A DNA stretch of 64,000 nt from Marmoricola sp. Leaf446 (GTDB lineage: Bacteria; Actinomycetota; Actinomycetes; Propionibacteriales; Nocardioidaceae): NCBI RefSeq assembly GCF_001424755.1, contig NZ_LMRF01000003.1:1-64000 (forward strand). The letters run 5' to 3'. The notes under the pieces were generated by a model. The model made no database searches, was not told where the DNA came from, and worked only from the letters and a program-made list of their open reading frames with translations. Below are positions 21,527 through 34,441 of this stretch, piece by piece. The stretch's first letter is position 1. Every line of letters starts with the position of its first letter. Made by a program: the position numbers and the translations under genes.

Positions 21527-22120
21527 GTGACCGTGCGACCCGCGTCCACCTCGACGGCCGTCCCCGACGACGTCGTGCTGCTCGACGACGACGGCACCCC
21601 CACCGGCACCGCGCCGCGCCTCGCCGTGCACGACACCGACACGCCTCTCCACCTGGCGTTCTCGCTGCACCTCATCGACCCGCAGGGGCGCACCCTGCTG
21701 ACCCGGCGGGCCCTGCCCAAGCGCACCTGGCCCGGGGTCTGGACCAACTCCTGCTGCGGCCACCCCCGCCCCGGGGAGTCCCCGGCGGCCGCGGCCCGCC
21801 GTCGGGTCGCCGAGGAGCTCGGCGTCGACGTCGGGGAGCCGACCCTGGTGCTGCCCGACTTCCGCTACCGCGCCGTCGACGCCGGCGGCGTGGTGGAGAA
21901 CGAGATCTGCCCGGTCCACGCCGTGGCCGTCGAGCCCGACCTGGGGCTGCGGCCGGACCCCGCCGAGGTGGCCGAGACGGCATGGGTGCCCTGGGCCGAC
22001 CTGCACGAGGCGGTGACCCGCACCCCCATGGTCTTCAGCCCCTGGATGGTGCTGCAGGTCCGCGCCCTCGGTCCCGACCTCCCGCTCGGCTCGACACCCG
22101 AGGGCGGCGCACGACCGTGA
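21527..22120 (+). CDS. idi: isopentenyl-diphosphate delta-isomerase, type 1
   Basis: 197 residues, NUDIX fold. It interconverts IPP and DMAPP, supplying the primer for prenyl chains. The catalytic Cys sits in TNSCCGHPRPGE (about residue 77), the NUDIX helix AAARRRVAEELGV follows, and ENEICPVHAV carries the second catalytic acidic residue. First gene of the plus-strand carotenoid operon; its TGA overlaps the GTG of crtE. Good AGGAG upstream. Confidence 0.93.
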   Translation: MTVRPASTSTAVPDDVVLLDDDGTPTGTAPRLAVHDTDTPLHLAFSLHLIDPQGRTLLTRRALPKRTWPGVWTNSCCGHPRPGESPAAAARRRVAEELGVDVGEPTLVLPDFRYRAVDAGGVVENEICPVHAVAVEPDLGLRPDPAEVAETAWVPWADLHEAVTRTPMVFSPWMVLQVRALGPDLPLGSTPEGGARP

Positions 22121-23220
22121 ACGCCGCCCTGGCGCCCGTCCCGCACCCGGTCCCCGACGCGCAGGCGTCGCTGCGGGCCGTCGAGATGCTGCTGCTGGAG
22201 CGGCTGCGCGCGCTGCGCGAGGAGTGGCACGCCGGCGCCGAGGCCCGTGACACCGTGCTCGGCGACCAGGACGTGCCCGACCTGCTGACCGGCCTGGTGC
22301 TGGCCGGCGGCAAGCGGTTCCGCCCGCTGCTGTGTCACTGGGGCTGGGTCGCGGTGCCCGACGCTGCGCCCGCGACCCACGACGACATGGTCGCGGTGGG
22401 CGCGGCGCTCGAGCTGCTGCACGCCTTCGCCCTCGCGCAGGACGACGTGATGGACCGGTCGGGCACCCGGCGCGGCCGGCCGGCCGTCCACGTCCTCGCC
22501 ACCGAGCGGCACCGGGCGGCCCACGGCCACGACGACGCCGAGCGCTACGGCGACTCGATCGCGGTGCTGGCGGGCGACCTCGGCCACGCGGAGGCCGACG
22601 ACCTCGTGGGCGAGCTGCCGGCCGACGTACGCCGGCTGTGGCGACGCACCTGCGTGGAGCTGGTGCGCGGCCAGGCCCGCGACCTCGCCGACGCCGCCCG
22701 CGGCGGTGACGGCGACGCGCTGCGCCGAGCGCTCGAGGTGGCCCGGGCCAAGTCCGGCGCCTACACCATCCAGCGGCCGGTCGAGCTCGGCGCCACCGTC
22801 GCCGGCGCCGACGCCGCGACCCTGGCGCCGCTCGGCGACTACGGCCGCCACCTCGGCGAGGCGTTCGCGCTGCGCGACGACCTGCTCGGCGTGTGGGGCA
22901 GCCCCGAGGCCACCGGCAAGCCGGTCGGCGACGACCTGCGGCTCGGCAAGTCCACCGTCCTGCTCGCGATCGCCGAGCAGCGTCTCGGCGGCGCGGGCGC
23001 CGCCGCGCTGCGCCGCGTGCGCCGCCAGACCCACGACGAGGCCGACGTCGCCACCCTCGCCGAGGCGATGGTCCGCGACGGCGTCCGCGACGAGGTGGAG
23101 GAGATGGTCGAGCACCGCGTCGACCGCTCCCTCGCCGCCCTCGACCACCACCGGCTCAGCGACGAGGGTGTCGCCGGGCTGGCCGAGGTCGCCCGCCGTG
23201 TCGCCTGGCGACAGCGGTGA
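22117..23220 (+). CDS. crtE: geranylgeranyl-diphosphate synthase (polyprenyl synthetase)
   Basis: 367 residues. It condenses IPP units onto allylic primers. The first Asp-rich motif is DDVMD (about residue 109) with SGTRRGRPA after it, and the second is DDLLG in ALRDDLLGVWG; GGKRFRP near residue 67 binds IPP. Chain length is inferred from context (crtI, crtB follow) rather than from the residues before the first motif. The GTG at 22117 lies within the idi stop (GTGA). Confidence 0.9.
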   Translation: MNAALAPVPHPVPDAQASLRAVEMLLLERLRALREEWHAGAEARDTVLGDQDVPDLLTGLVLAGGKRFRPLLCHWGWVAVPDAAPATHDDMVAVGAALELLHAFALAQDDVMDRSGTRRGRPAVHVLATERHRAAHGHDDAERYGDSIAVLAGDLGHAEADDLVGELPADVRRLWRRTCVELVRGQARDLADAARGGDGDALRRALEVARAKSGAYTIQRPVELGATVAGADAATLAPLGDYGRHLGEAFALRDDLLGVWGSPEATGKPVGDDLRLGKSTVLLAIAEQRLGGAGAAALRRVRRQTHDEADVATLAEAMVRDGVRDEVEEMVEHRVDRSLAALDHHRLSDEGVAGLAEVARRVAWRQR

Positions 23221-23251: not shown

Positions 23252-24751
23252 ATGAGCACCGTCGTCGTCATCGGAGCCGGTCTCGCCGGCCTCGCCACCG
23301 CCTGTCACCTCGTCGGGAGCGGCCACGAGGTCGTCGTCGTCGAGCGCGGCACCATCCCGGGCGGCCGCGCCGGACGCGTCGAGCGCGACGGCTACACCTT
23401 CGACACCGGTCCCACCGTGATGACCATGCCGGGGCTGCTCGAGGACGCCACCCGCGCCGCCGGCAGCGACCTGTCCGACGTCATCACGCTGCGCCAGCTC
23501 GACCCGGCGTACCGCGCCCGCTTCGCCGACGGCAGCGAGATCCACGTCCGCGCCGGCCACGAGGCGATGCGGGCCGAGATCGAAGCCACCTGCGGCAGCA
23601 AGGACGCCGTCGCCTTCGACGGCTTCGTCGACTGGCTGCAGCGCCTCTACGCCATCGAGATGCCGCACTTCATCGACACCAACTTCGACTCCCCGCTCGA
23701 CCTGCTGCGCAACCCCGGGGCGGCGGCGCGCCTGGTCGCCATGGGGGGCTTCGGCAAGCTCGGCCCGGCCGTGCGCCGTCGATTCTCCGACGAGCGGCTG
23801 CGGCGGCTGTTCACGTTCCAGGCGATGTACGCCGGCCTGCCGCCCAGCTCCGCGCTGAGCCTGTACGCCGTGATCACCTACATGGACTGCATCGAGGGCG
23901 TCTACTTCCCCGAGGGCGGCATGAGCCAGGTGCCGCGCTCGCTGGAGCGGGCCGCCACCCGCGGCGGCGTCGACCTGCGCTACGGCCAGACCGTGACCCG
24001 GATCCTGCGCCGCGGCGTCGACGGCGGCGTGGCCGGCGTCGAGGTCGACGGCGGCGAGCAGCTGCGTGCCGACGCCGTGGTCTGCACCCTCGACCTGCCC
24101 GTCGCCTACGAGCGGCTGCTGCCCGACCTGCGACCGGGGCGCGTCGTGCGCAAGGGCACCTACTCCCCCTCCGCCGTGGTGTGGCACGTCGGAGCCCGGG
24201 GCCAGGTCGCGCCCGGCACCGACCACCACAACATCCACTTCGGCGAGGCCTGGGACAGCTCCTTCGACGCGCTGATCAACCAGGGCCGGCTGATGCCCGA
24301 CCCGTCGCGGCTGGTCACGGTGCCCTCGCTCAGCGACCCGTCGCTGGCCGCGCCCGGCGGCACCACGATGTACGTCCTGGAGCCGGTGCCCAACCTGGCC
24401 GGCAAGGTCGACTGGAAGGCCCAGCGCGCGCCGATGCGCGACTCGCTGCTGCGCTTCCTCGAGACCGAGGGCTACCCCACCGACATCGTCGCCGAGGAGC
24501 TGGTCGACCCGCTCGACTGGCAGGCCGACGGCATGGCCCAGGGCACGCCGTTCGCGCTCGCCCACACCTTCGCGCAGACCGGTCCGTTCCGGCCGCCCAA
24601 CGCGGAGAAGCGGGTGCCCGGGCTGTTCTTCGCCGGCTCCGGCACCACCCCCGGGGTGGGCGTCCCGATGGTGCTGGTCTCGGGCAAGCTCGCGGCGCAG
24701 CGCGCCACGGCGTACCTCCCGACGACGCGGCGCGAGGCGGTGGCCCGGTGA
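23252..24751 (+). CDS. crtI: phytoene desaturase
   Basis: 499 residues. N-terminal FAD-binding motif VIGAGLAGLATACHLVGSG, then GRAGRVERDGYTFDTGPTV, and the C-terminal carotenoid-oxidoreductase signature FFAGSGTTPGVGVPMVLVSG. It introduces the four double bonds that turn phytoene into lycopene. GAGGA precedes the ATG, and the stop overlaps the GTG of the next gene. The number of desaturation steps cannot be read from sequence, though the presence of lycopene cyclases implies lycopene. Confidence 0.93.
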   Translation: MSTVVVIGAGLAGLATACHLVGSGHEVVVVERGTIPGGRAGRVERDGYTFDTGPTVMTMPGLLEDATRAAGSDLSDVITLRQLDPAYRARFADGSEIHVRAGHEAMRAEIEATCGSKDAVAFDGFVDWLQRLYAIEMPHFIDTNFDSPLDLLRNPGAAARLVAMGGFGKLGPAVRRRFSDERLRRLFTFQAMYAGLPPSSALSLYAVITYMDCIEGVYFPEGGMSQVPRSLERAATRGGVDLRYGQTVTRILRRGVDGGVAGVEVDGGEQLRADAVVCTLDLPVAYERLLPDLRPGRVVRKGTYSPSAVVWHVGARGQVAPGTDHHNIHFGEAWDSSFDALINQGRLMPDPSRLVTVPSLSDPSLAAPGGTTMYVLEPVPNLAGKVDWKAQRAPMRDSLLRFLETEGYPTDIVAEELVDPLDWQADGMAQGTPFALAHTFAQTGPFRPPNAEKRVPGLFFAGSGTTPGVGVPMVLVSGKLAAQRATAYLPTTRREAVAR

Positions 24752-26622
24752 CCCTGCTCGACCCGACGCTCGAGGTCGGCTACCGCCAGGCGGCCGACCT
24801 GACCCGCAAGTACGGCACGACGTACTTCTGGGGCGCGGCGCTGCTGCCCGCCGCCCAGCGGCGCCACGTGCACGCCGTCTACGCCCTGTGCCGGCTGGCC
24901 GACGACATCGTCGACGACGCCGTCGCGCTGGGGCGCGACACCGCCCAGACCCGCGCCGAGCTGGCCTCGTTCCGCGCCCGCTTCGGCGAGGCCGTGGCCA
25001 CCGGCGGCAGCCCCGACCCGGTGCTGGCCGCCGTGGCGCGCAGCGTCGAGGAGTGCGGCATCGACCCCGGGTGCTTCGACCGGTTCTTCGACGCGATGGC
25101 GCAGGACCTCGACACCAGCAGCTACCGCAGCTGGGAGGACCTGCTCGGCTACATGGACGGCTCGGCCGCGGTGATCGGCGAGATGATGCTGCCGGTGCTG
25201 CAGCCGCGGAGCACGGCGGCCTTCGAGCCCGCCCGCGCGCTGGGCCTGGCCTTCCAGCTCACCAACTTCCTGCGCGACGTCGCCGAGGACCTCGACCGGG
25301 GCCGGGTCTACCTGCCCCAGGAGGACCTCGAGCGGTTCGGCGCCGACCCCGCCGCCCGCACCGTGACCGAGGACTGGCGTCGGTTGATGCGCTTCGAGAT
25401 CGAGCGCAACCGCGAGCTCTACGTCGAGGCCGACCGCGGCCTGGCCCACCTCGCCGGCGCCGCCGAGCGCTGCGTGCGCACCGCGCGCGTGCTCTACTCC
25501 GGCATCCTCGACAAGATCGAGGAGTCCGACTACGACGTGTTCAGCCAGCGGGCCCGGGTGCCCACCTGGCGCAAGGCCGGCACCGCCGCCCGCACCGTCG
25601 TGGCCCGCCGCCCGGCCACCTCACCTGCGGCTCCCGCTCCCGCCGCGCCGGCCCGCTCGCGGGTGCCGGTCGAGCTGCGCCGGATGCCGCCCCGCGACCG
25701 GCTCGCCCCCAGCTGGCGCGACGCCTCCCCCCGGCGCATCCGTCGGTCGCTCGACGCGGCGCTGGCCCAGGACCCCGGCGGCTGGTACGTCGTGGGCGCC
25801 AGCCGCGACCTGCGCGACCGCTCGATCGTGCGGATGCTCGGCGGCCGCGAGGTCACCCTGTGGCGCTCCTCCACCGGTGTCGTCGCCGGCCCCGGCAGCT
25901 GCCCCCACCTCGGCGCGCTGCTCGAGGACTGCGAGGTGCTCGGCGACCGGCTCCACTGCCGGTGGCACGGCCTGGCGATCGGCGCCGACGGGGCGCCCGG
26001 CTGGACGCCGTACACCGCCCACGACGACGGCGTGCTGCTCTGGGTGCAGCTGCCCACCCAGGGCGAGACCCCGCTGCCGCGGCCCCGCCTGACCGCGCGC
26101 CCGGAGACCTTCGACTCCGTCGCCGCCGTGATCGAGGTCGAGGGCACCTGCGAGCCGCGCGACATCATCGCCAACCGGCTCGACCCGTGGCACGGCTCGT
26201 GGTTCCACCCCTACTCCTTCAGCCACCTCGCGGTGGTCGAGGACCTGAGCGACGACCACGTGCTCACCGTCGACGTCACCTTCCGGCTCAGCCGCACCTG
26301 GGGGGTGCCGGTGCGCGCGGAGTTCGCCTGCCCCGACGCCCGCACCATCGTCATGACCATCACCGAGGGCGAGGGCGCCGGCAGCGTGGTCGAGACCCAC
26401 GCGACCCCGCTCGGCCCCGGCGCCGACGGCCGCCCGCGCACGATGATGACCGAGGCCACCATCGCCACCTCCGACCGCACCGGCTTCGCCGTCGCCCGCC
26501 ACCTCGCCCCGGCCCTCCGCCCGGCCATGAAGAAGGTCGCCCGCCGCCTCTGGGTCGACGACCTCACCTACGCCGAGCGCAGCTACGACCTCCGCTCCCG
26601 CGGCGAGCACTACGGCGTCTGA
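24748..26622 (+). CDS. crtB: phytoene synthase fused to a Rieske [2Fe-2S]/DUF5914-type domain
   Basis: 624 residues in one uninterrupted frame. Residues 1 to about 285 are a complete phytoene synthase: DDIVDD (52-57) and DVAED (177-181) are the two Mg-binding acidic motifs. An Ala/Pro-rich linker (about 285-315) leads to a second part with a full Rieske motif C385-x-H387 and C404-x2-H407, followed by about 210 residues resembling the DUF5914 region of actinobacterial Rieske proteins. The synthase makes phytoene from two GGPP. The Rieske half probably passes electrons for a later step, most simply ring aromatisation with the CrtU-like enzyme encoded opposite. Start GTG overlaps the crtI stop. 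Confidence 0.88.
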   Translation: MTLLDPTLEVGYRQAADLTRKYGTTYFWGAALLPAAQRRHVHAVYALCRLADDIVDDAVALGRDTAQTRAELASFRARFGEAVATGGSPDPVLAAVARSVEECGIDPGCFDRFFDAMAQDLDTSSYRSWEDLLGYMDGSAAVIGEMMLPVLQPRSTAAFEPARALGLAFQLTNFLRDVAEDLDRGRVYLPQEDLERFGADPAARTVTEDWRRLMRFEIERNRELYVEADRGLAHLAGAAERCVRTARVLYSGILDKIEESDYDVFSQRARVPTWRKAGTAARTVVARRPATSPAAPAPAAPARSRVPVELRRMPPRDRLAPSWRDASPRRIRRSLDAALAQDPGGWYVVGASRDLRDRSIVRMLGGREVTLWRSSTGVVAGPGSCPHLGALLEDCEVLGDRLHCRWHGLAIGADGAPGWTPYTAHDDGVLLWVQLPTQGETPLPRPRLTARPETFDSVAAVIEVEGTCEPRDIIANRLDPWHGSWFHPYSFSHLAVVEDLSDDHVLTVDVTFRLSRTWGVPVRAEFACPDARTIVMTITEGEGAGSVVETHATPLGPGADGRPRTMMTEATIATSDRTGFAVARHLAPALRPAMKKVARRLWVDDLTYAERSYDLRSRGEHYGV

Positions 26623-26793: not shown

Positions 26794-28338
26794 CTACCCC
26801 CGCTTGTCGAGGAAGCGCGCGAGGGTGGGGACGACGCGGTGGCGGTGCGAGGTGGGGACGGTCCAGACGCCGTGGCCCGTCACGCCGTACGACGCGAGCA
26901 GCCGGTCGGCGGCCTGAAAGCCGGTCGTGGCGGCGCGCTCCATCAGGGCGACGGGCAGCTCGCAGCGGACGCCGTCACCGGCCAGCACCACCCGGGGGTC
27001 GGGCGTGACGACGCCGGGGCGCGAGGCCCACGGCTCGGTGCCCACGAGCGGGCAGTCGTCACGCCAGAGCCACTCCTCGTGACGGATCCGGGCGCCGTCG
27101 AGCTCGGGGTGCAGCACCAGCAGCTCGCGCCAGAGCCGCTCCCGCAGCGCCTGCACGTCGGCGGCCGGCTCTAGGGCGTAGGCGTGGAGCTCGACGACCG
27201 AGCCGTCGTGCTCGCCGGTCCAGCGCGCGGCCCCCTCCTCGAGCAGCTCCAGCACCGAGACGTTGTCGAGCGGGCCGAAGCCGCTGGTGGCACGGAACGG
27301 CGCCGAGCCGGGCGCGACGCGACGGTCGAGCCACAGCCGCCACACCGCGAACGGCGGCGCCGAGCGCTGCGCCGCCAGCGACGCGCGCCAGGCGTCGTCG
27401 CCGAGCCCCGGCGAGGCGGAGACCAGCTGCTGCAGCGGCGCCCGGTCGAGGGCGAGCACGACCCCGTCGACGCGGGTGGAGCCGGCCCCGGTGAGCACGT
27501 CGAGGGCGCCGTCACCGGCCGAGGTGACCGACTCCACGGCCTCGCCGGTGCGGACCTCGGCCCCGAGGCCGTCGAGGTGCCGCCCCAGCGGCGCCCACAA
27601 CGCGGTGTCGTAGTCGTCGACCGGCACGTCGAAGAGCAGCCCCTCGGCCGAGCCGAGGAAGTAGGAGTGGAACATCGCGACCAGCTCGCCCGCGGAGAAG
27701 TCCCGGGCGTCGGCGAAGAAGCTGCGCGCGAACACCTCCAGCGCCAGGTGACGGGCCTGGTCGGGGAACCGCAGCCGGTCGAGGTACGCCGCGGCGCTGA
27801 CGCCGTCGTACCGCTCGAAGGTGGCCGGGAAGTCGACGTCGAGCAGCTCCATCGCCGCGCCCACGTCGACGGCCGCGAGGTCGCGCAGCCGGAAGGTCGG
27901 CGAGCGCAGCACGAAGGACACGATGTTCAGCGGCGGTGTCAGCGCGATGCCGGTGAAGGAGTCGGTCGGGCCGTCCTTGAGCGAGAGCGGGTAGTCCTCG
28001 ACCGCGTGCAGCCGCTCCAGCGCCGGGTCGGTGCGCCGGAGCAGCGAGCGCAGGTTGTAGTACTGCCGGAAGAAGGCGTGGAACCCGCGGCTCATCGCCG
28101 TCGTGGTGCCGTCCACCGTGACCGGCCACGACGCCACCCGGCCGCCCAGACGGTCGCCACGCTCGAGCAGCGTCACGCGGACACCGCGCTCGGCGAGCGC
28201 GGTGGCGGCGGACAGGCCGGCGATGCCGCCCCCGACGACGGCCACGTGGTGCCGCTGCCCGTCGTGGGCGGCGCCGCCCGCGGGCGCGTGCCACTCGGCG
28301 CGGGGGTCGCGGCCGGGGCGCCAGCCGGGTCCGCTCAC
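26794..28338 (-). CDS. crtU: CrtU-like FAD-dependent carotenoid ring desaturase/methyltransferase
   Basis: 514 residues. FAD motif VVGGGIAGLSAATALAERG near residue 30, then GGRVASW, SRGFHAFFRQYYNLRSLLRR, LFDVPVDDY and the C-terminal ALMERAATTGFQAADRLL. This pattern fits the actinobacterial CrtU group, which converts beta-carotene rings to aromatic phi-rings (isorenieratene). It is last in a minus-strand operon with the heterodimeric lycopene cyclase genes. GTG start overlaps the methyltransferase stop (GTGA). A less specific squalene/phytoene-type oxidoreductase is the alternative. Confidence 0.75.
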   Translation of the reverse strand: MSGPGWRPGRDPRAEWHAPAGGAAHDGQRHHVAVVGGGIAGLSAATALAERGVRVTLLERGDRLGGRVASWPVTVDGTTTAMSRGFHAFFRQYYNLRSLLRRTDPALERLHAVEDYPLSLKDGPTDSFTGIALTPPLNIVSFVLRSPTFRLRDLAAVDVGAAMELLDVDFPATFERYDGVSAAAYLDRLRFPDQARHLALEVFARSFFADARDFSAGELVAMFHSYFLGSAEGLLFDVPVDDYDTALWAPLGRHLDGLGAEVRTGEAVESVTSAGDGALDVLTGAGSTRVDGVVLALDRAPLQQLVSASPGLGDDAWRASLAAQRSAPPFAVWRLWLDRRVAPGSAPFRATSGFGPLDNVSVLELLEEGAARWTGEHDGSVVELHAYALEPAADVQALRERLWRELLVLHPELDGARIRHEEWLWRDDCPLVGTEPWASRPGVVTPDPRVVLAGDGVRCELPVALMERAATTGFQAADRLLASYGVTGHGVWTVPTSHRHRVVPTLARFLDKRG

Positions 28339-29090
28339 GCGGGCCGACGTCCGACGAAGGTGTGCAGCACGCCGCGCTGCCAGCCGCCGAAGCTGCGGCT
28401 GCGGACGTCGACGAGACCGGCGGCGACCATCCGGCTGCGGAGCAGGTGGGTGCTGTCGAAGTCGACGACGCTGCGCCACAGGTAGCGGTAGATCGGGCTG
28501 CGTGGGGCCGTGAGCAGACCGAGCGGCACGACCACGCCCCACGAGACGGCGTCCCAGACCCGCCGGCCGACGCGGCTCTCGACGACGCTGTACTCGTGGA
28601 CCACGACGGACCCGCCCGGCACGAGCAGCCGCACGATGCCGGCCAGCAGGGCGTCGCGGGCGGTCACGTTGCGCACGAGGTACGCCGCGAACACGCCGTC
28701 GACGGTGCCCTCGCCGTCGAGGTGGGCGCGCCCCCACGTGGCGAGGTCGAGGTGCTCGGCGTCGTCCTGCACGAAGTGCACCGGGCTGGTCCAGGTCTTG
28801 CGCCGCGCCTGCTCGAGCATGCCGGCGGAGCCGTCGACGCCGACGATCTCGTGCGGCACCCCGGCGGCCTGCAGCGCGGCCTCCAGGGCGCGGGTGGAGG
28901 CGCCCGAGCCGCAGCCGAGGTCGACGACGCGCAGCGGCCGGTCGGCGGGCCGCGGGAGCGCCGCCACCAGCACCTCGGCGGAGCGTCGCAGCTGGGCGTG
29001 GTAGCCGGGGTTGAGTGCCACCATCAGGTCGTACGTCGGGGCCACCCCGTCGAAGGTCTCGGGGACGCTGGGGGCGGTGGCGGTGGTCAT
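28335..29090 (-). CDS. class I SAM-dependent methyltransferase in the carotenoid operon
   Basis: 251 residues. SAM motif VVDLGCGSGASTRALE near residue 50, acidic loop IVGVDGSAGML, and a UbiE/COQ5-like C-terminus (LLVPGGSVVVHEYSVVES, SFGGWQRGVLHTFVGRRP). It lies between crtYd and crtU with ATGA and GTGA overlaps, so it is translationally coupled to them. Streptomyces crt clusters also carry a methyltransferase-like gene (crtV), which may be the counterpart. Its substrate is not known. Confidence 0.8.
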   Translation of the reverse strand: MTTATAPSVPETFDGVAPTYDLMVALNPGYHAQLRRSAEVLVAALPRPADRPLRVVDLGCGSGASTRALEAALQAAGVPHEIVGVDGSAGMLEQARRKTWTSPVHFVQDDAEHLDLATWGRAHLDGEGTVDGVFAAYLVRNVTARDALLAGIVRLLVPGGSVVVHEYSVVESRVGRRVWDAVSWGVVVPLGLLTAPRSPIYRYLWRSVVDFDSTHLLRSRMVAAGLVDVRSRSFGGWQRGVLHTFVGRRPA

Positions 29091-29443
29091 GGGGTCCTCT
29101 GCTCGGACGGGGTGGAGGTGGACGGTGGGGTCTCTGCCACCGGGCGTGGGCCCAGGCGCAGCCAGAGCAACATGGTCAGGGTGACCATGCTGAAACCGAA
29201 GGCGAAGTCCTCGACGGGGATGTCCCAGGGGATCCGCCACCCGGTCATCTCGCTCTCCTCGTAGAGCACGATCGGGTCGGAGAGCTTGGTCAGCCACCCG
29301 TCGACGGGCACCTGGAAGCCGAGCACGATCGCCATGGCGATCCAGTACTGCAGGGTGCGGAACACCCCGGTGCGGAACCACAGCAGCTCCAGCGCCACGA
29401 CCACGACGACCGAGAGCACCGCGAAGACGGTGTACTCCAGCAT
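29087..29443 (-). CDS. crtYd: lycopene cyclase subunit, CrtYd type
   Basis: 118 residues, three predicted membrane helices. It contains IPVEDFAFGFSMV, the CrtYd counterpart of the PxE-E/D cyclase motif, and a hydrophobic N-terminus (MLEYTVFAVLSVVVVVALELLWF). Together with CrtYc it should form the heterodimeric lycopene beta-cyclase in the membrane. Start overlaps the crtYc stop by one base and the stop overlaps the methyltransferase start. Confidence 0.85.
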   Translation of the reverse strand: MLEYTVFAVLSVVVVVALELLWFRTGVFRTLQYWIAMAIVLGFQVPVDGWLTKLSDPIVLYEESEMTGWRIPWDIPVEDFAFGFSMVTLTMLLWLRLGPRPVAETPPSTSTPSEQRTP

Positions 29444-29802
29444 CAGGCACCCCGCTCGACGGGTGCCGCCGCGGTCGTACGCCGCGCGCGCAGCCAGCCC
29501 AGCGTGTTGCCGACCGCCTCGTAGGTCAGCAGCCCGCAGATGGGGATGACGACGAAGAACACGAGCTCCTCGAGCGGCATCGCGAAGGGCAGCAGGATGC
29601 CGGTGGTGTAGCGCTCGCTGTAGTCCCAGGTGCCGCGGGCGATGGCCACGACGTCCCAGACGCCGTAGACGACGACGACGGGCAGCAGCGCGAGCAGCAG
29701 GCGGCGCGGCCGGCGCCACACCCGTGCCCCGAGGACGAACTCGAGGGGAAGGGTGAGCAGCAGGCAGCCCGCCATCAGCAGGAGGTACTGGTACTGGTCC
29801 AC
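29443..29802 (-). CDS. crtYc: lycopene cyclase subunit, CrtYc type
   Basis: 119 residues with three membrane helices. PLEFVLGARVWRR at the first helix and PLEELVFFVVIP near residue 78 match CrtYc; PLEE is thought to be part of the active site. First gene of the crtYc-crtYd-methyltransferase-crtU operon. The GTG start sits seven bases after a TAGGCT box, so translation is probably leaderless. Confidence 0.87.
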   Translation of the reverse strand: MDQYQYLLLMAGCLLLTLPLEFVLGARVWRRPRRLLLALLPVVVVYGVWDVVAIARGTWDYSERYTTGILLPFAMPLEELVFFVVIPICGLLTYEAVGNTLGWLRARRTTAAAPVERGA

Positions 29803-29850: not shown

Positions 29851-30609
29851 CTAGGACGACCGGCGACCCAGCAGCTTGGACAGGACCCACAGCACCACGA
29901 CACCGCCGAGGGCCTGCTTCCAGTACAGCCTGGCCAGCACCGGGAGCACCGTGGCCCCCAGGTCGAGGGCGTCGTCGTTGCTGCCCGAGCCCCCCGACGC
30001 CGCCGCCGGGGCCGCGGCCGTGCCCCCGTCGCTGGAGGCGAGCCGGCGGATGTTGCTGACCCGCTCCTCCTCGGGACGGTCGCCCGCACCGGCCGAGGCC
30101 GGCGTGGCCGGAGCGGGGTCGGCCGCACCTGCCGGCGGCTCCGGCTCGGAGACCGGGCCGGCGGGGGCGCCCACCTTCTGCTCGAGGCAGGCGGTGAACT
30201 GGCCGAGCAGCTTGTCGCTGACGTCCTGGATGACGCCGCGACCGAACTGCGCGGGCTTGCCGGTGATGTTGAGGTCGGTGGTGACCTCGACCCGGGTGGA
30301 CCCGCCGCCCACGTCGCTCATCCGGGCTAGCACGTCGGCGCCGGCGGTGCCGTTGCCGCGCTTGTCCTTGCCCTTGGCCTCGATCTTCATCGTGCGCGCC
30401 GACTCGTCCTTCTCCAGGAACGTGCCGGTGCCGCTGTAGACCAGGGCGATCGGGCCGAGCTTGACCTTGACCGTGCCCTTGAACGTGTCGCCCTCGACCG
30501 AGGTCACCTGCGCGCCGGGGAAGCACTCCCCCACGCTGGCGATGTCGTTGAAGGCGTCCCACGTCTCCTGGAGCGTGGCCGGGACCGTGAACTCGTGCTT
30601 GAGGTCCAT
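29851..30609 (-). CDS. coxG: CoxG/SRPBCC-family protein with C-terminal membrane anchor
   Basis: 252 residues. Residues 1 to about 150 are an SRPBCC (START-like) domain of the CoxG type (FTVPATLQETWDAFNDIASVGECFPGA). A Pro/Ala-rich linker follows, then a C-terminal hydrophobic helix (QALGGVVVLWVLSKLLGRR). CoxG is believed to tether the Mo-hydroxylase complex to the membrane and may carry quinone; the terminal helix fits that. It is last in coxS-coxL-coxM-coxG, one base after the coxM stop. Confidence 0.85.
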   Translation of the reverse strand: MDLKHEFTVPATLQETWDAFNDIASVGECFPGAQVTSVEGDTFKGTVKVKLGPIALVYSGTGTFLEKDESARTMKIEAKGKDKRGNGTAGADVLARMSDVGGGSTRVEVTTDLNITGKPAQFGRGVIQDVSDKLLGQFTACLEQKVGAPAGPVSEPEPPAGAADPAPATPASAGAGDRPEEERVSNIRRLASSDGGTAAAPAAASGGSGSNDDALDLGATVLPVLARLYWKQALGGVVVLWVLSKLLGRRSS

Positions 30610-30610
30610 G

Positions 30611-31468
30611 TCAGCTCGAGCCTGCCGCCTTGAGCACCGCACGGCGGGTGAGCACCGTGGCGAGGTGCGAGCGGTACGCCGCGTCGCCGTTGAGGTCCGA
30701 GGGCGGGTTGGTGCCCTCCGCCGCCAGGTCGCACGCGGCGCGGACGCCGTCCTCGGTCGCCGGCTGACCCACCAGCGCCTGCTCGGTCGCCGTGGCCCGC
30801 AGGGCGGTGGAGCCCATGTTGACCAGGCCGAGCCGGGCCTCGCTGATGGTGCCGCCCTCGACCTTGACCGAGGCGGCCACCGACACGATCGGCCACTGGT
30901 GGGCCACGCGCACGAACTTCTCGTAGTGCGAGCCCCAGCCGTCGTGCTTGCGGAACCGGATCGCGGTGAGGATCTCGTCCTCGCCGACGGCGGTGGTGAA
31001 GAGGTCCTCGAAGAACTCCGTCGCCGCCACCGTGCGCTCCCCGCCCGGGCCCTGGATGACCAGGTCGGCCTCCAGCGCCAGGGTGGGTGCCCCGCAGTCG
31101 CCCGCGGGGTCGGCGTGCACGAGCGCGCCACCGAGGGTGCCGCGGTGCCGGATCTGCGGGTCGGCCACCTCGGTGATGGCCTTGTGCAGCAGGCTCAGGC
31201 TGTCCCGTATGCCGGCGTCGCCCAGGATCTGTGCGTACGTCGCCATCGCGCCGATGCTGATCGTGTCGCCCTCGTCGCGGATCTCCCGCAGCGAGTCGAT
31301 CTTGCCGATGTCGATGACGACCTCGGGGGCGTTGAGGCGCATCCGGAGCACGGGGAGCAGCGACTGCCCCCCGGCCAGGATCTTGGCCTCGTCACCGTGC
31401 TCGGCCAGCGCCGCGAGGGCCTCCTCGACCGACGTGGGTGCCACGTAGGCGAACTGGGTGGGGATCAC
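30611..31468 (-). CDS. coxM: molybdenum hydroxylase FAD subunit (CoxM/XdhB-like)
   Basis: 285 residues. FAD-binding motifs AGGQSLLP (about residue 32) and RGTLGGALVHADPAGD (about 108-123, the TxGG-like segment) are clear. It takes electrons from the 2Fe-2S subunit and passes them to the membrane or another acceptor. GTG start overlaps the coxL stop (GTGA). Confidence 0.9.
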   Translation of the reverse strand: MIPTQFAYVAPTSVEEALAALAEHGDEAKILAGGQSLLPVLRMRLNAPEVVIDIGKIDSLREIRDEGDTISIGAMATYAQILGDAGIRDSLSLLHKAITEVADPQIRHRGTLGGALVHADPAGDCGAPTLALEADLVIQGPGGERTVAATEFFEDLFTTAVGEDEILTAIRFRKHDGWGSHYEKFVRVAHQWPIVSVAASVKVEGGTISEARLGLVNMGSTALRATATEQALVGQPATEDGVRAACDLAAEGTNPPSDLNGDAAYRSHLATVLTRRAVLKAAGSS

Positions 31469-33969
31469 TGACCTGCTCCTTCGCTGCTGTTGCCGTCGTG
31501 GCGCTGGGACTGGCCCTCACCGTCGGTGGCGGGGTCGAAGTGGGCGGCCGCGGCCCCCACGGTGTCCTCGGTGGCGCCGGCGGTGCCGTCCTGGATCGCC
31601 TTCCACACCCGCTCGGGCGTGCACGGCATCTGGATGTCCTTGACGCCGAACTGGCGGATCGCGTCGAGCACGGAGTTGACCACGGCCGGCGTCGAGGCGA
31701 TGGTGCCCGCCTCGCCGACGCCCTTGGTGCCCAGCGTGTTGGTCAGCGACGGCGTGGTGTTGTGGCCCACGTCGTAGTTGATCGTGTCGGCGGCCGTCGG
31801 CACGAGGTAGTCCACGAACGACGCGGAGACCAGGGTCCCGGAGTCGTCGTACACCGCCTCCTCCCACAGCGCCTGGGCGATGCCCTGCACGAGGCCGCCG
31901 TGGACCTGGCCCTCGACGATGAGCGGGTTGATGACGTTGCCGATGTCGTCCACGCAGGTGTACTTGCGCATCTTGACCTGACCGGTCTCGGTGTCCACCT
32001 CCATGGCGCACAGGTGCGTGCCGTGGGGGTAGTTGAAGTTGATCGGGTCGTAGGTCGCGTCGGAGTCCAGCGAGGGCTCCATGCCGTCGGGCAGGTTGTG
32101 CGCGACGAACACGGCGCCGGCGACGTCCTGGATGGAGACGGCGGCGTCGGTGCCGCGGACGCCGAAGCTGCCCGCCTTGAACTCGATGTCCTCGACGTTG
32201 GCCTCGAGCAGGTGGGCCGCGACCGGCTTGGCCTTCTCGACGACCTTGTCGGTGGCCTTGACCAGCGCCTCGCCGCCGACGACGAGCGAGCGCGAGCCGT
32301 AGGTGTCGAGGCCCTTGGCGGCCACCTGGGTGTCGCCGTGCAGCACCTCGACGTCCTCGAAGGGCACGCCGAGCCGGTCGGCGACGATCTGGCTGAACGC
32401 CGTCTCGTGGCCCTGGCCGTGGGCGCTGGCGCCGGTGACGATCTCGACCTTGCCGGTCGCGAGCATCCGCACCGAGGCGTGCTCCCAGCCGCCGGCCCCG
32501 TAGTCGAGCGAGCCGAGCACCCGGCTGGGGGCGAGGCCGCACATCTCGGTGAAGGTCGAGACGCCGATGCCGAGCTGCACCTTGTCGCCGGACTCGCGGC
32601 GCTGCTTCTGCTCGGCGCGGAGCTCGTCGTAGCCGAACATCTCCTTGGCCTTGGCGGTGGCGGCCTCGTAGTTGCCGGAGTCGTACTCCAGGCCGGCGAC
32701 CGTGGTGAAGGGGAACTCCTCGGCCTTGATCCAGTTCTTCTCGCGGACCTCGAGCGGGTCCACGCCGAGCTCGAGGGCGAGCTCGTCCATGATCCGCTCG
32801 ATGCCGAAGGTGGCCTCGGGCCGGCCGGCGCCGCGGTAGGCGTCGGTCCAGGTCTTGTTGGTCAGCACCGTCTGGCAGGCGAAGTGGTAGGCCGGGAACT
32901 TGTAGATCGCGTTGAACATGAACGCGCCGAGCACCGGGACGCCGCCGCCGACGAGGCTGACGTAGGAGCCGAGGTCGGCGAGCAGCTCGACCTTGAGGCC
33001 GGTGACGGTGCCGTCCTTCTCGGCGGCCAGGGTCAGCTTCTGCCACTGGTCGCGGCCGTGGTGGGCCGACATCAGCGACTCCGAGCGGGTCTCGGTGAAC
33101 TTCACCGGCTTGCCCGTGCGCCGCGCGACCGCGACGGTGATCCACTCCTCGGGGGTGGTCTGCAGCTTGCCGCCGAACCCGCCGCCCACGTCGGGGGCGA
33201 TGACGCGGATCTTCGACTCCGGCATGCCGGTGGTCGCGGCGAGCGCGAAGCGCAGGATGTGCGGGATCTGGGTCGCCGACCACATCGTCAGCTGCTCGCC
33301 GGTGGGGTCGACCACGGTCGAGCGGGGCTCCATGAAGGCGGGGATCAGGCGCTGCTGGCGGAACTCGCGCTCGATGACGACGCCGCCCTCGCGGGCCTTG
33401 CTGATCGCCTCCTCGACGTCGCCGCCGGTGCCGGCCTCGGCCGAGTCGAACTTCCACAGCGCCGACTTGTTGGTGCCGAGGTCGGGGTGGGCGAGCACGG
33501 TGTCGGCGGCCGCCTCCTTGAGGTCGAGCGCCGCGGGCAGCTCCTCGTAGTCGACGTCGACGAGCTCGGCGGCGTCACGGGCCTCGGCCTGCGAGCGCGC
33601 CACGACCACCGCCACGATCTCCCCGGCGAAGCTGACCCGGTCGGCCGGGACCGGCAGGTGGGTCGGGGTGACCTGGTCGGGGGTGATCGGCCAGGCGTTG
33701 ATGAGCACGCCCTGGGTCTCGGCCAGGTCGGCGCCGGTCAGCACGTCGACCACGTTGCGCGAGGCCTTGGCCTCCGAGACGTCGATGTTGGTGATCTTGG
33801 CGTGGGCGAAGGGGCTGCGCACCATCGCGAGGTGCAGCATGCCGTTGATCTGGATGTTGTCGGTCCACTTGGTGCGGCCGGTGATGAGGCGCTGGTCCTC
33901 CTTGCGGCGGCGGTCGCGACCGATCTCGAGGCGGGGCTCGGTGGTGGGGGCGTCCTGGGTGGCGGTCAT
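31465..33969 (-). CDS. coxL: form II CoxL-like molybdopterin large subunit
   Basis: 834 residues, full length. Mo-cofactor motifs include VGGGFGGK and GVGEAGTIAS, whose Glu is the catalytic base. The active-site loop reads AYRGAGR (377-383), the form II signature, not AYxCSFR of true aerobic CO dehydrogenase, so no Cys is present to hold Cu. It hydroxylates some substrate using Mo; CO oxidation is unproven for form II enzymes. Flanked by small and medium subunits. ATG begins MTATQDAPTTEPR. Confidence 0.88.
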   Translation of the reverse strand: MTATQDAPTTEPRLEIGRDRRRKEDQRLITGRTKWTDNIQINGMLHLAMVRSPFAHAKITNIDVSEAKASRNVVDVLTGADLAETQGVLINAWPITPDQVTPTHLPVPADRVSFAGEIVAVVVARSQAEARDAAELVDVDYEELPAALDLKEAAADTVLAHPDLGTNKSALWKFDSAEAGTGGDVEEAISKAREGGVVIEREFRQQRLIPAFMEPRSTVVDPTGEQLTMWSATQIPHILRFALAATTGMPESKIRVIAPDVGGGFGGKLQTTPEEWITVAVARRTGKPVKFTETRSESLMSAHHGRDQWQKLTLAAEKDGTVTGLKVELLADLGSYVSLVGGGVPVLGAFMFNAIYKFPAYHFACQTVLTNKTWTDAYRGAGRPEATFGIERIMDELALELGVDPLEVREKNWIKAEEFPFTTVAGLEYDSGNYEAATAKAKEMFGYDELRAEQKQRRESGDKVQLGIGVSTFTEMCGLAPSRVLGSLDYGAGGWEHASVRMLATGKVEIVTGASAHGQGHETAFSQIVADRLGVPFEDVEVLHGDTQVAAKGLDTYGSRSLVVGGEALVKATDKVVEKAKPVAAHLLEANVEDIEFKAGSFGVRGTDAAVSIQDVAGAVFVAHNLPDGMEPSLDSDATYDPINFNYPHGTHLCAMEVDTETGQVKMRKYTCVDDIGNVINPLIVEGQVHGGLVQGIAQALWEEAVYDDSGTLVSASFVDYLVPTAADTINYDVGHNTTPSLTNTLGTKGVGEAGTIASTPAVVNSVLDAIRQFGVKDIQMPCTPERVWKAIQDGTAGATEDTVGAAAAHFDPATDGEGQSQRHDGNSSEGAGQ

Positions 33970-33970
33970 C

Positions 33971-34441
33971 TCAGGCCTCCGTCTTCTGGCCGGCCGCGGT
34001 CTGCACGGCCTTGACGATGTTGTGGTAGCCGGTGCAGCGACACAGGTTGCCCTCGATGCCGACCCGGATCTCCGCCTCGGAGGGGTTCGGGTTGTCCTTG
34101 AGCAGGTCCACGGACTGCATGATCATGCCGGGGGTGCAGAAGCCGCACTGGAGCGCGTGGCACTCGTGGAAGGCCGCCTGCACGGGGTGGAGCTCGCCGT
34201 CGGTGGCGAGGCCCTCGATGGTGGTCACCTCGGCGCCGTCGGCCTGGACGGCGAGCACGTTGCACGACTTCACGCTGCGCCCGTCGAGGTGGACGGTGCA
34301 GGCACCGCAGTTGCTGGTGTCGCACCCGATGACGGTGCCGGTCTTGCCGAGCTTCTCGCGGAGGTACTGCACCAGCAGCATCCGCGGCTCGACGTCGTCG
34401 GAGACGGTCGCGCCGTCGACCTTGAGTTCGATCCTGGTCAT
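33971..34441 (-). CDS. coxS: molybdenum hydroxylase 2Fe-2S subunit (CoxS-like)
   Basis: 156 residues. Plant-type ferredoxin cluster [15 protein letters not shown] (with a fourth Cys in KSCNVL) in the N-terminal half and the second cluster [10 protein letters not shown] plus CRCTGYHNI in the C-terminal half. It carries electrons from the Mo site to FAD. The ATG at 34441 (MTRIELKV) follows a GAGGAG-type ribosome-binding site; an ATG 30 bases upstream is less likely. Confidence 0.92.

Follow-up and report, generated by a model that had tools for sequence, protein, structure and literature searches.

What does a Rieske iron–sulfur protein contribute when it is built into the same polypeptide as a phytoene synthase? 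The question is raised by a gene at positions 24748–26622 of the window, by which is meant the whole 64,000-nucleotide stretch analysed here (positions 1 to 64,000 of contig NZ_LMRF01000003.1 of Marmoricola sp. Leaf446), in which a CrtB-like synthase is joined in frame to Rieske and DUF5914 domains. The gene is probably a fusion of crtB and crtV, in which the Rieske half would serve as a monooxygenase acting on the aromatic or beta end ring of a carotenoid, most likely at C-3, followed by methylation by CrtT.

The gene occupies one uninterrupted frame on the forward strand, from a GTG start at 24748 to a stop at 26622, and encodes 624 residues with the following parts:

24748–26622, + strand: crtB::crtV fusion gene, a single open frame with the Pfam architecture below, its first bases (from GTG) overlapping the end of crtI (24748–24751)
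24805–25572, + strand: squalene/phytoene synthase domain (SQS_PSY, PF00494, E 4.1e-72), residues 20–275, with the Asp-rich motifs DDIVDD (residues 52–57) and DVAED (residues 177–181)
25606–25653, + strand: Ala/Pro linker, residues 287–302, predicted to be disordered
25660–26622, + strand: putative CrtV-like Rieske non-heme iron oxygenase half, residues 305–624, assigned by predicted model with Foldseek and VIA-align matches
25783–26019, + strand: Rieske [2Fe–2S] domain (PF00355, E 4e-11), residues 346–424, with the ligand motif C385-P-H387 and C404-R-W-H407
26059–26604, + strand: DUF5914 (PF19299, E 8.7e-88), residues 438–619, predicted to form most of the oxygenase catalytic domain
26182–26208, + strand: putative mononuclear-iron motif D479-P-W-H482-G-S-W-F-H487
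26557–26562, + strand: D604-D605, the likely third (carboxylate) iron ligand

The first-pass annotation, made from the DNA of the window alone, had described a genuine CrtB–Rieske fusion in one frame, and the open frame and Pfam architecture bear this out, with DDIVDD, DVAED, C385-x-H387 and C404-x2-H407 all at the places it gave. The Rieske motif and the DUF5914-like tail that it recognized are both present, but it overlooked the iron motif D479-x2-H482-x4-H487; its statement that an early and a late step of the pathway are tethered is true of the polypeptide. The first half is assigned as a phytoene synthase from its motifs and from its place between crtE/crtI and crtU. It exceeds the Pfam cut-off for SQS_PSY and scores below every NCBIfam phytoene-synthase equivalog cut-off (174 of 550, 122 of 500, and 99.1 of 480 bits), these models being strict and partly lineage-named, and its best NCBIfam score, also below cut-off, is to HpnD (201.9 of 278.6 bits). 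The full-length model contains two well-folded domains separated by the disordered linker (predicted local distance difference test score, pLDDT, below 50), without confident placement of one relative to the other (predicted template modelling score, pTM, 0.53).

The second half looks like a complete Rieske non-heme iron oxygenase and not a mere electron carrier, to judge from its predicted structure. D-x2-H-x4-H is the mononuclear-iron motif of Rieske non-heme iron oxygenases, and its three residues D479, H482, and H487 are invariant among 51 aligned sequences (the window's included), as are the Rieske ligands C385, H387, C404, and H407. D605 is likewise invariant and D604 is present in at least 90% of the 51 sequences, and this pair likely carries the third ligand of the iron. 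The predicted model of residues 305–624 (pLDDT 88.7, pTM 0.87) matches KshA, dicamba monooxygenase, and the saxitoxin-pathway enzymes SxtT and GxtA across nearly the whole Rieske half; all 50 Foldseek rows shown are Rieske oxygenases or complexes thereof, headed by a ketosteroid 9-alpha-hydroxylase (E 3.2e-14), and VIA-align superposes 264 residues on dicamba monooxygenase at 3.1 Å with a Z score of 21.6. The half thus has both C-x-H...C-x2-H and D-x2-H-x4-H together with a predicted fold that extends across both domains, as in the alpha subunit of a Rieske oxygenase. Sequence searches alone recognize just the Rieske part of it, which may explain why the Pfam entry DUF5914 is still one of unknown function.

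By sequence and gene neighborhood, the second half corresponds to CrtV of the Streptomyces crtEIBV/crtYTU clusters. Many Streptomyces and Nocardiopsis loci have the order crtE-crtI-crtB-V converging on crtU-crtT, with the gene for the V protein directly after crtB, and the Rieske half is 53–56% identical to its counterparts in the Streptomyces loci. In the window, too, a Rieske and DUF5914 protein is found beside crtB, crtU, and crtT in the same cluster, the fused state being a variant: idi, crtE, and crtI lie upstream of the fusion on the same strand, and crtU, crtT, and two small cyclase genes converge on it from the other side.

21527–22120, + strand: idi, isopentenyl diphosphate isomerase of the NUDIX family (Pfam; named by context)
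22117–23220, + strand: crtE, polyprenyl (geranylgeranyl diphosphate, GGPP) synthase (PF00348; start from a simple gene caller)
23252–24751, + strand: crtI, phytoene desaturase family (TIGR02734, 469.9 bits, cut-off 238.1)
26794–28338, − strand: crtU, desaturase/methyltransferase type (Amino_oxidase/FAD family; at least 50% identical to genes in crt clusters of other actinobacteria; start from the gene caller)
28335–29090, − strand: crtT, UbiE-type methyltransferase (PF01209; start from the gene caller)
29087–29443, − strand: crtYd-like lycopene cyclase subunit (PF18916/TIGR03462 in the longer frame 29087–29719; start from the gene caller)
29443–29802, − strand: probable crtYc-like lycopene cyclase subunit (by gene call and position only)

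The arrangement crtE-crtI-crtB-V facing crtU-crtT has also been described for Streptomyces argillaceus (PMC5993118, here and below in excerpt) and Streptomyces sp. VITGV38 (excerpt of PMC11998277); crtV is annotated as a "2Fe-2S ferredoxin" in the latter (PMC11998277) and as a "putative methylesterase" in S. coelicolor (excerpt of PMC8539372). Becerril et al. (2018; PMC5993118) describe CrtV as a Rieske non-heme iron oxygenase. The S. argillaceus cluster, when placed in S. albus, gave 3-hydroxy- and 3,3'-dihydroxyleprotene along with methylated derivatives, and the same authors proposed that CrtaV hydroxylates isorenieratene at C-3, after which CrtaT methylates the product (PMC5993118). The oxygenase and 3-hydroxylase function of CrtV is, in other words, an already published proposal and not a discovery of the present analysis. 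DUF5914 is not mentioned in the open-licence literature searched, where absence is weak evidence, and a CrtB–Rieske fusion goes unmentioned, with the same weakness, in the titles and abstract openings listed from that literature on phytoene synthase with Rieske.

In the mechanism that we propose, the gene would have arisen by merger of crtB and crtV, which are neighbors in the aromatic-carotenoid cluster of actinobacteria. Its N-terminal half would convert two GGPP molecules to phytoene, and its C-terminal half would draw electrons from a separate, generic ferredoxin/reductase via its own [2Fe–2S] cluster, allowing the mononuclear iron and O2 to place a hydroxyl group on the end ring, whether already aromatic or still of the beta type. 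C-3 would be the most likely site, and the reaction would follow or roughly coincide with that of CrtU; the hydroxyl would then be O-methylated by CrtT. The fusion would hold the two enzymes, which in relatives come from genes that abut or overlap, at a one-to-one ratio, and the flexible linker would let both halves work on the same membrane. The activity of either half is inferred, as are the reaction with the ring position attacked and its place before or after CrtU, the source of electrons, and whatever advantage the fusion may bring.

The distribution of the three late genes was followed in overlapping genome samples of the phylum (n = 396), the class (n = 394), and the family (n = 100). 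All 18 genomes with DUF5914 in the phylum sample also had a CrtU match, none lacking one at 1e-30, and the co-occurrence with crtU that the first-pass annotation had led one to expect is thus found: the Rieske half belongs with CrtU. CrtU was present in 77 of the 394 class-sample genomes, 72 of which had DUF5914 and 70 CrtT, the DUF5914 search having been confined to these 77 (the other 317 had no CrtU match). DUF5914 was missing from five of the 77, namely three of one sister genus (G214, G442, G480) and two (G204, G639) with only a 44% CrtU-like match, which are probably not true CrtU genomes. Another genome (G656) entered the 77 by a 43% match at a distance, with its DUF5914 and CrtT elsewhere, and its CrtU is likewise doubtful; crtT and crtV are retained about 310 bases apart in its stretch L173 (7013–8909), which holds no full CrtU, and crtU seems to have been lost. 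The simple gene caller misses genes, including crtT in L173, and key loci were checked by tblastn.

Every one of the 70 CrtT genomes among the CrtU-positives carried either DUF5914 (67) or a cytochrome P450 adjacent to crtU (3). In the other direction, DUF5914 occurred without a CrtT match at 1e-25 in five of the 77 (G307, G706, G709, G713, G717), and tblastn found no CrtT at 1e-4 in the 12.8–18 kb stretches around crtU in these genomes. For three of them (G706, G713, G717) the CrtT scoring covered only 35 of 36–60 first-look candidates, so that a CrtT elsewhere was possibly missed, and G307 has a 32% CrtT match elsewhere at 1e-14. Three Nocardia loci (L094, L100, L101) and an Amycolatopsis locus (L068) likewise showed no local CrtT by tblastn. 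CrtT is therefore not upheld as an obligate partner of the oxygenase, and the asymmetry between the two, carried by few exceptions, fits hydroxylation before methylation. Among the same genomes, G653 carries an additional CrtU (L175, 7761–9326; 62% identity to that of the window) away from its complete crt cluster and next to a CrtI-like gene (33%), and crtV was not called in that stretch. In-frame stops in CrtU of G023 and G648 and in DUF5914 of G717, and a split DUF5914 match in G193, may reflect pseudogenes or assembly errors.

The sister genus mentioned above (g2) offers a comparison in which the Rieske gene has most likely been replaced. CrtU was found in 4 of its 49 genomes, all of which carry a cytochrome P450 directly 3' of crtU, lying between crtU and the converging crtB and closing the crtT-crtU operon, which is the place of crtV in the window.

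L138, 7055–8356: cytochrome P450 after crtU, 3' end overlapping convergent crtB
L139, 9407–10741: the same
L140, 6994–8328: the same
L177, 6934–8268: the same

The Pfam p450 domain was confirmed for two of the four proteins, the other two being 96–98% identical. DUF5914 had no match in the assemblies of three of these genomes (G214, G442, G480) and none at the locus of the fourth, to which the search was confined (for G834 it was not genome-wide). P450 matches in four other CrtU genomes reached only 43–45% identity and lay on another contig than crtU or about 59 kb or more away. CrtU of g2 falls inside the Rieske-associated CrtU clade in a quick tree of 47 chosen rows, with Shimodaira–Hasegawa-like approximate likelihood ratio test (SH-aLRT) support only, which makes it most likely that the P450 replaced the Rieske enzyme in this genus. 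The swap of one type of O2-using hydroxylase for another is easily understood, whereas that of an electron carrier for a P450 is not, and the position of the P450 at crtV's place supports an oxygenase role for the Rieske half, as does the finding that each of the 70 CrtT genomes has one or the other oxygenase gene. The g2 enzyme is a candidate second type of aromatic-carotenoid hydroxylase; a P450 is reportedly responsible for the last step of aryl carotenoid synthesis in Brevibacterium, going by nothing but the title of a 2005 article by Dufosse and De Echanove. The P450-bearing genomes also differ elsewhere in the pathway: idi and crtE are fused into one gene in three of the four (L138, 1802–3457; L140, 1738–3408; L177, 1693–3348), as judged by the NUDIX and polyprenyl synthase domains in Pfam for L138 and by BLAST for L140 and L177, neither gene was found in the stretch read of L139, and their cyclase is of the FAD type (Lycopene_cycl by Pfam in L138).

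Several points weigh against the proposed hydroxylation by the Rieske half. It is uncommon for a Rieske oxygenase to add a single hydroxyl directly to an aromatic ring, so that attack on C-3 of a beta ring, ahead of CrtU, is equally possible. The dependency of CrtT on an oxygenase gene in 70 of 70 genomes is weak as independent evidence, because crtU, crtT, and DUF5914 occur together in most CrtU genomes and the P450 case comes from a single clade. The cluster showed no gene for a ferredoxin or a reductase, although it was not searched systematically for one. For S. griseus, whose cluster includes crtV and crtT, isorenieratene is given as the final product (PMC5993118), so that CrtV may be idle there or may do something else. 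The S. albus host has its own carotenoid cluster, according to the title of a reference in the same source, so that the hydroxylase could be the host's, and the methylated leprotene products were proposed from molecular formulae (PMC5993118).

Two other functions of the Rieske half have to be weighed against ring hydroxylation. The first-pass annotation had the Rieske half serve CrtU as an electron supplier for aromatization or methyl migration, a role for which the tight genomic tie speaks (18 of 18 DUF5914 genomes with CrtU, 72 of 77 CrtU genomes with DUF5914), as do clusters that hold crtV and crtU and show no crtT and thereby make crtU the steadiest partner of crtV. Against this role stand the full oxygenase catalytic domain with its invariant iron-site motif, the persistence of CrtU without DUF5914 in three genomes and, by locus, a fourth, with a P450 beside crtU, and the statement of Becerril et al., citing Krugel 1999, that S. 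griseus needs neither crtV nor crtT for isorenieratene (PMC5993118); an electron shuttle was rejected on these grounds and is very improbable. Oxidation of a ring or chain methyl group to the alcohol, aldehyde, or acid, instead of ring C-3, with CrtT then making a methyl ester, would have a parallel in CruH, a hydroxylase/oxidase described as turning a methyl group of an aromatic carotenoid into a carboxyl in the synthesis of synechoxanthin (excerpt of PMC8342508). Searched by itself against NCBIfam, the Rieske half matches only a 4beta-methylsterol monooxygenase, which points the same way at 16.8 of 600 bits, far below cut-off. As the corresponding Streptomyces cluster yields 3-hydroxy derivatives (PMC5993118), methyl oxidation is unlikely, and hydroxylation of the end ring is preferred.

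The fusion itself was found in 13 genomes, comprising the window's, four further family members (G399, G469, G473, G481), and eight contigs that are named or belong to metagenome-assembled genomes (MAGs). DUF5914 occurred in 7 of the 100 family-sample genomes, fused in five and not in two (G416, G433). Among the best 80 of 238 matching loci, chosen with the fused protein as the query and thereby favoring fused genes, 8 were fused, 53 had adjacent separate genes, and 19 had no adjacent crtB in the stretch, some of these at contig ends; the Rieske halves of three of the fused loci (L028, L029, L034) are 98% alike. The fused lineages form a clade of 12 (Nocardioides where the genus is named, plus the window's) and Arsenicicoccus piscis. 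Trees of chosen rows for the Rieske half (94) and the CrtB half (40) both need two changes for the fusion, and a single origin is upheld in neither, with the reservation that the Arsenicicoccus row in the Rieske tree is long-branched and joins another long row. In unfused Propionibacteriaceae, the tail of CrtB (e.g., PTWRKA) and the leader of CrtV (e.g., RIPIALRP) can be recognized flanking the gene boundary; the fused proteins retain both, with a variable linker between them. The missed stop or frameshift that the first-pass annotation had named as a possible flaw is very unlikely, and an assembly artefact was rejected, since CrtB and Rieske share one frame in the 12 other genomes as well and tail and leader flank the linker. 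The fusion is real, stable, and recurrent, and a scaffold role is one possible reading of it.

The balance tips slightly towards a neutral fusion, in which the crtB stop was lost (with or without a frame change) and abutting genes were joined, the enzymes working as if separate and the tether being without effect, all of which is compatible with an oxygenase function. The genes abut in many unfused relatives, and in 12 of the 53 adjacent pairs the start codon closest to the end of crtB would make the two genes overlap by 4 bases (presumed starts); linker length varies widely among fused proteins, the model has no fixed domain interface, and crtV does not stand beside crtB in the Amycolatopsis loci and in the Pseudonocardiales MAG stretches examined. 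Against neutrality, members of the clade retain both the fusion and its catalytic motifs even where their Rieske halves are only about 67% identical, and the fusion has two origins; such retention and recurrence are compatible with selection, not proof of it. A bolder reading is a selected, twice-evolved metabolon, in which CrtB anchors the oxygenase at the site of carotenoid formation and the pigment, passed along CrtI, the cyclase, and CrtU, is oxygenated at the same membrane patch, or alternatively the oxygenase might act on an early intermediate; this we hold to be rather unlikely.

Beyond the cyclase genes, the carotenoid cluster is adjoined at 29851–34441 of the window by genes resembling a molybdenum hydroxylase (carbon monoxide dehydrogenase-like) cluster, named from reading of the sequence only. 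Genes whose sequence starts are similar to these lie on the same side of the cluster in G473 (L143, 46–2095).

Assigning DUF5914 to the catalytic domain of a Rieske oxygenase contrasts with its "unknown" status in Pfam and with the published methylesterase and ferredoxin labels for crtV. With the P450 beside crtU in the sister genus, two unrelated enzymes are available for a direct test of whether aromatic carotenoids are hydroxylated as proposed, and the repeated CrtB–oxygenase fusion provides a natural case in which to look for any advantage of tethering carotenoid enzymes.

Compared with Streptomyces CrtV (crtaV), the second half has the same domains (PF19299 and PF00355) and gene neighbors, but CrtV is a separate gene there and is joined here to the C terminus of CrtB. 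It shares with KshA, dicamba monooxygenase, and SxtT/GxtA the fold over nearly its whole length and the Rieske and iron motifs, and differs from them in sequence (12–18% identity in the VIA-align rows shown) and presumably in substrate class. The first half resembles other CrtB proteins of the SQS_PSY family in both Asp-rich motifs and in its place between crtI and crtU, and is unlike them in bearing a whole oxygenase as a C-terminal extension and in not reaching the NCBIfam equivalog cut-offs. In fungal CrtYB, too, a phytoene synthase is naturally joined to an enzyme that acts later in the pathway, although the partner there is lycopene cyclase and the partner here would be an oxygenase. CruH of the cyanobacterial synechoxanthin pathway presumably bears a Rieske domain. 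Its published role, the late oxygenation of an aromatic carotenoid (excerpt of PMC8342508), resembles the one proposed here. The parts of the window's gene are ordinary, and it is their fusion that is unusual.

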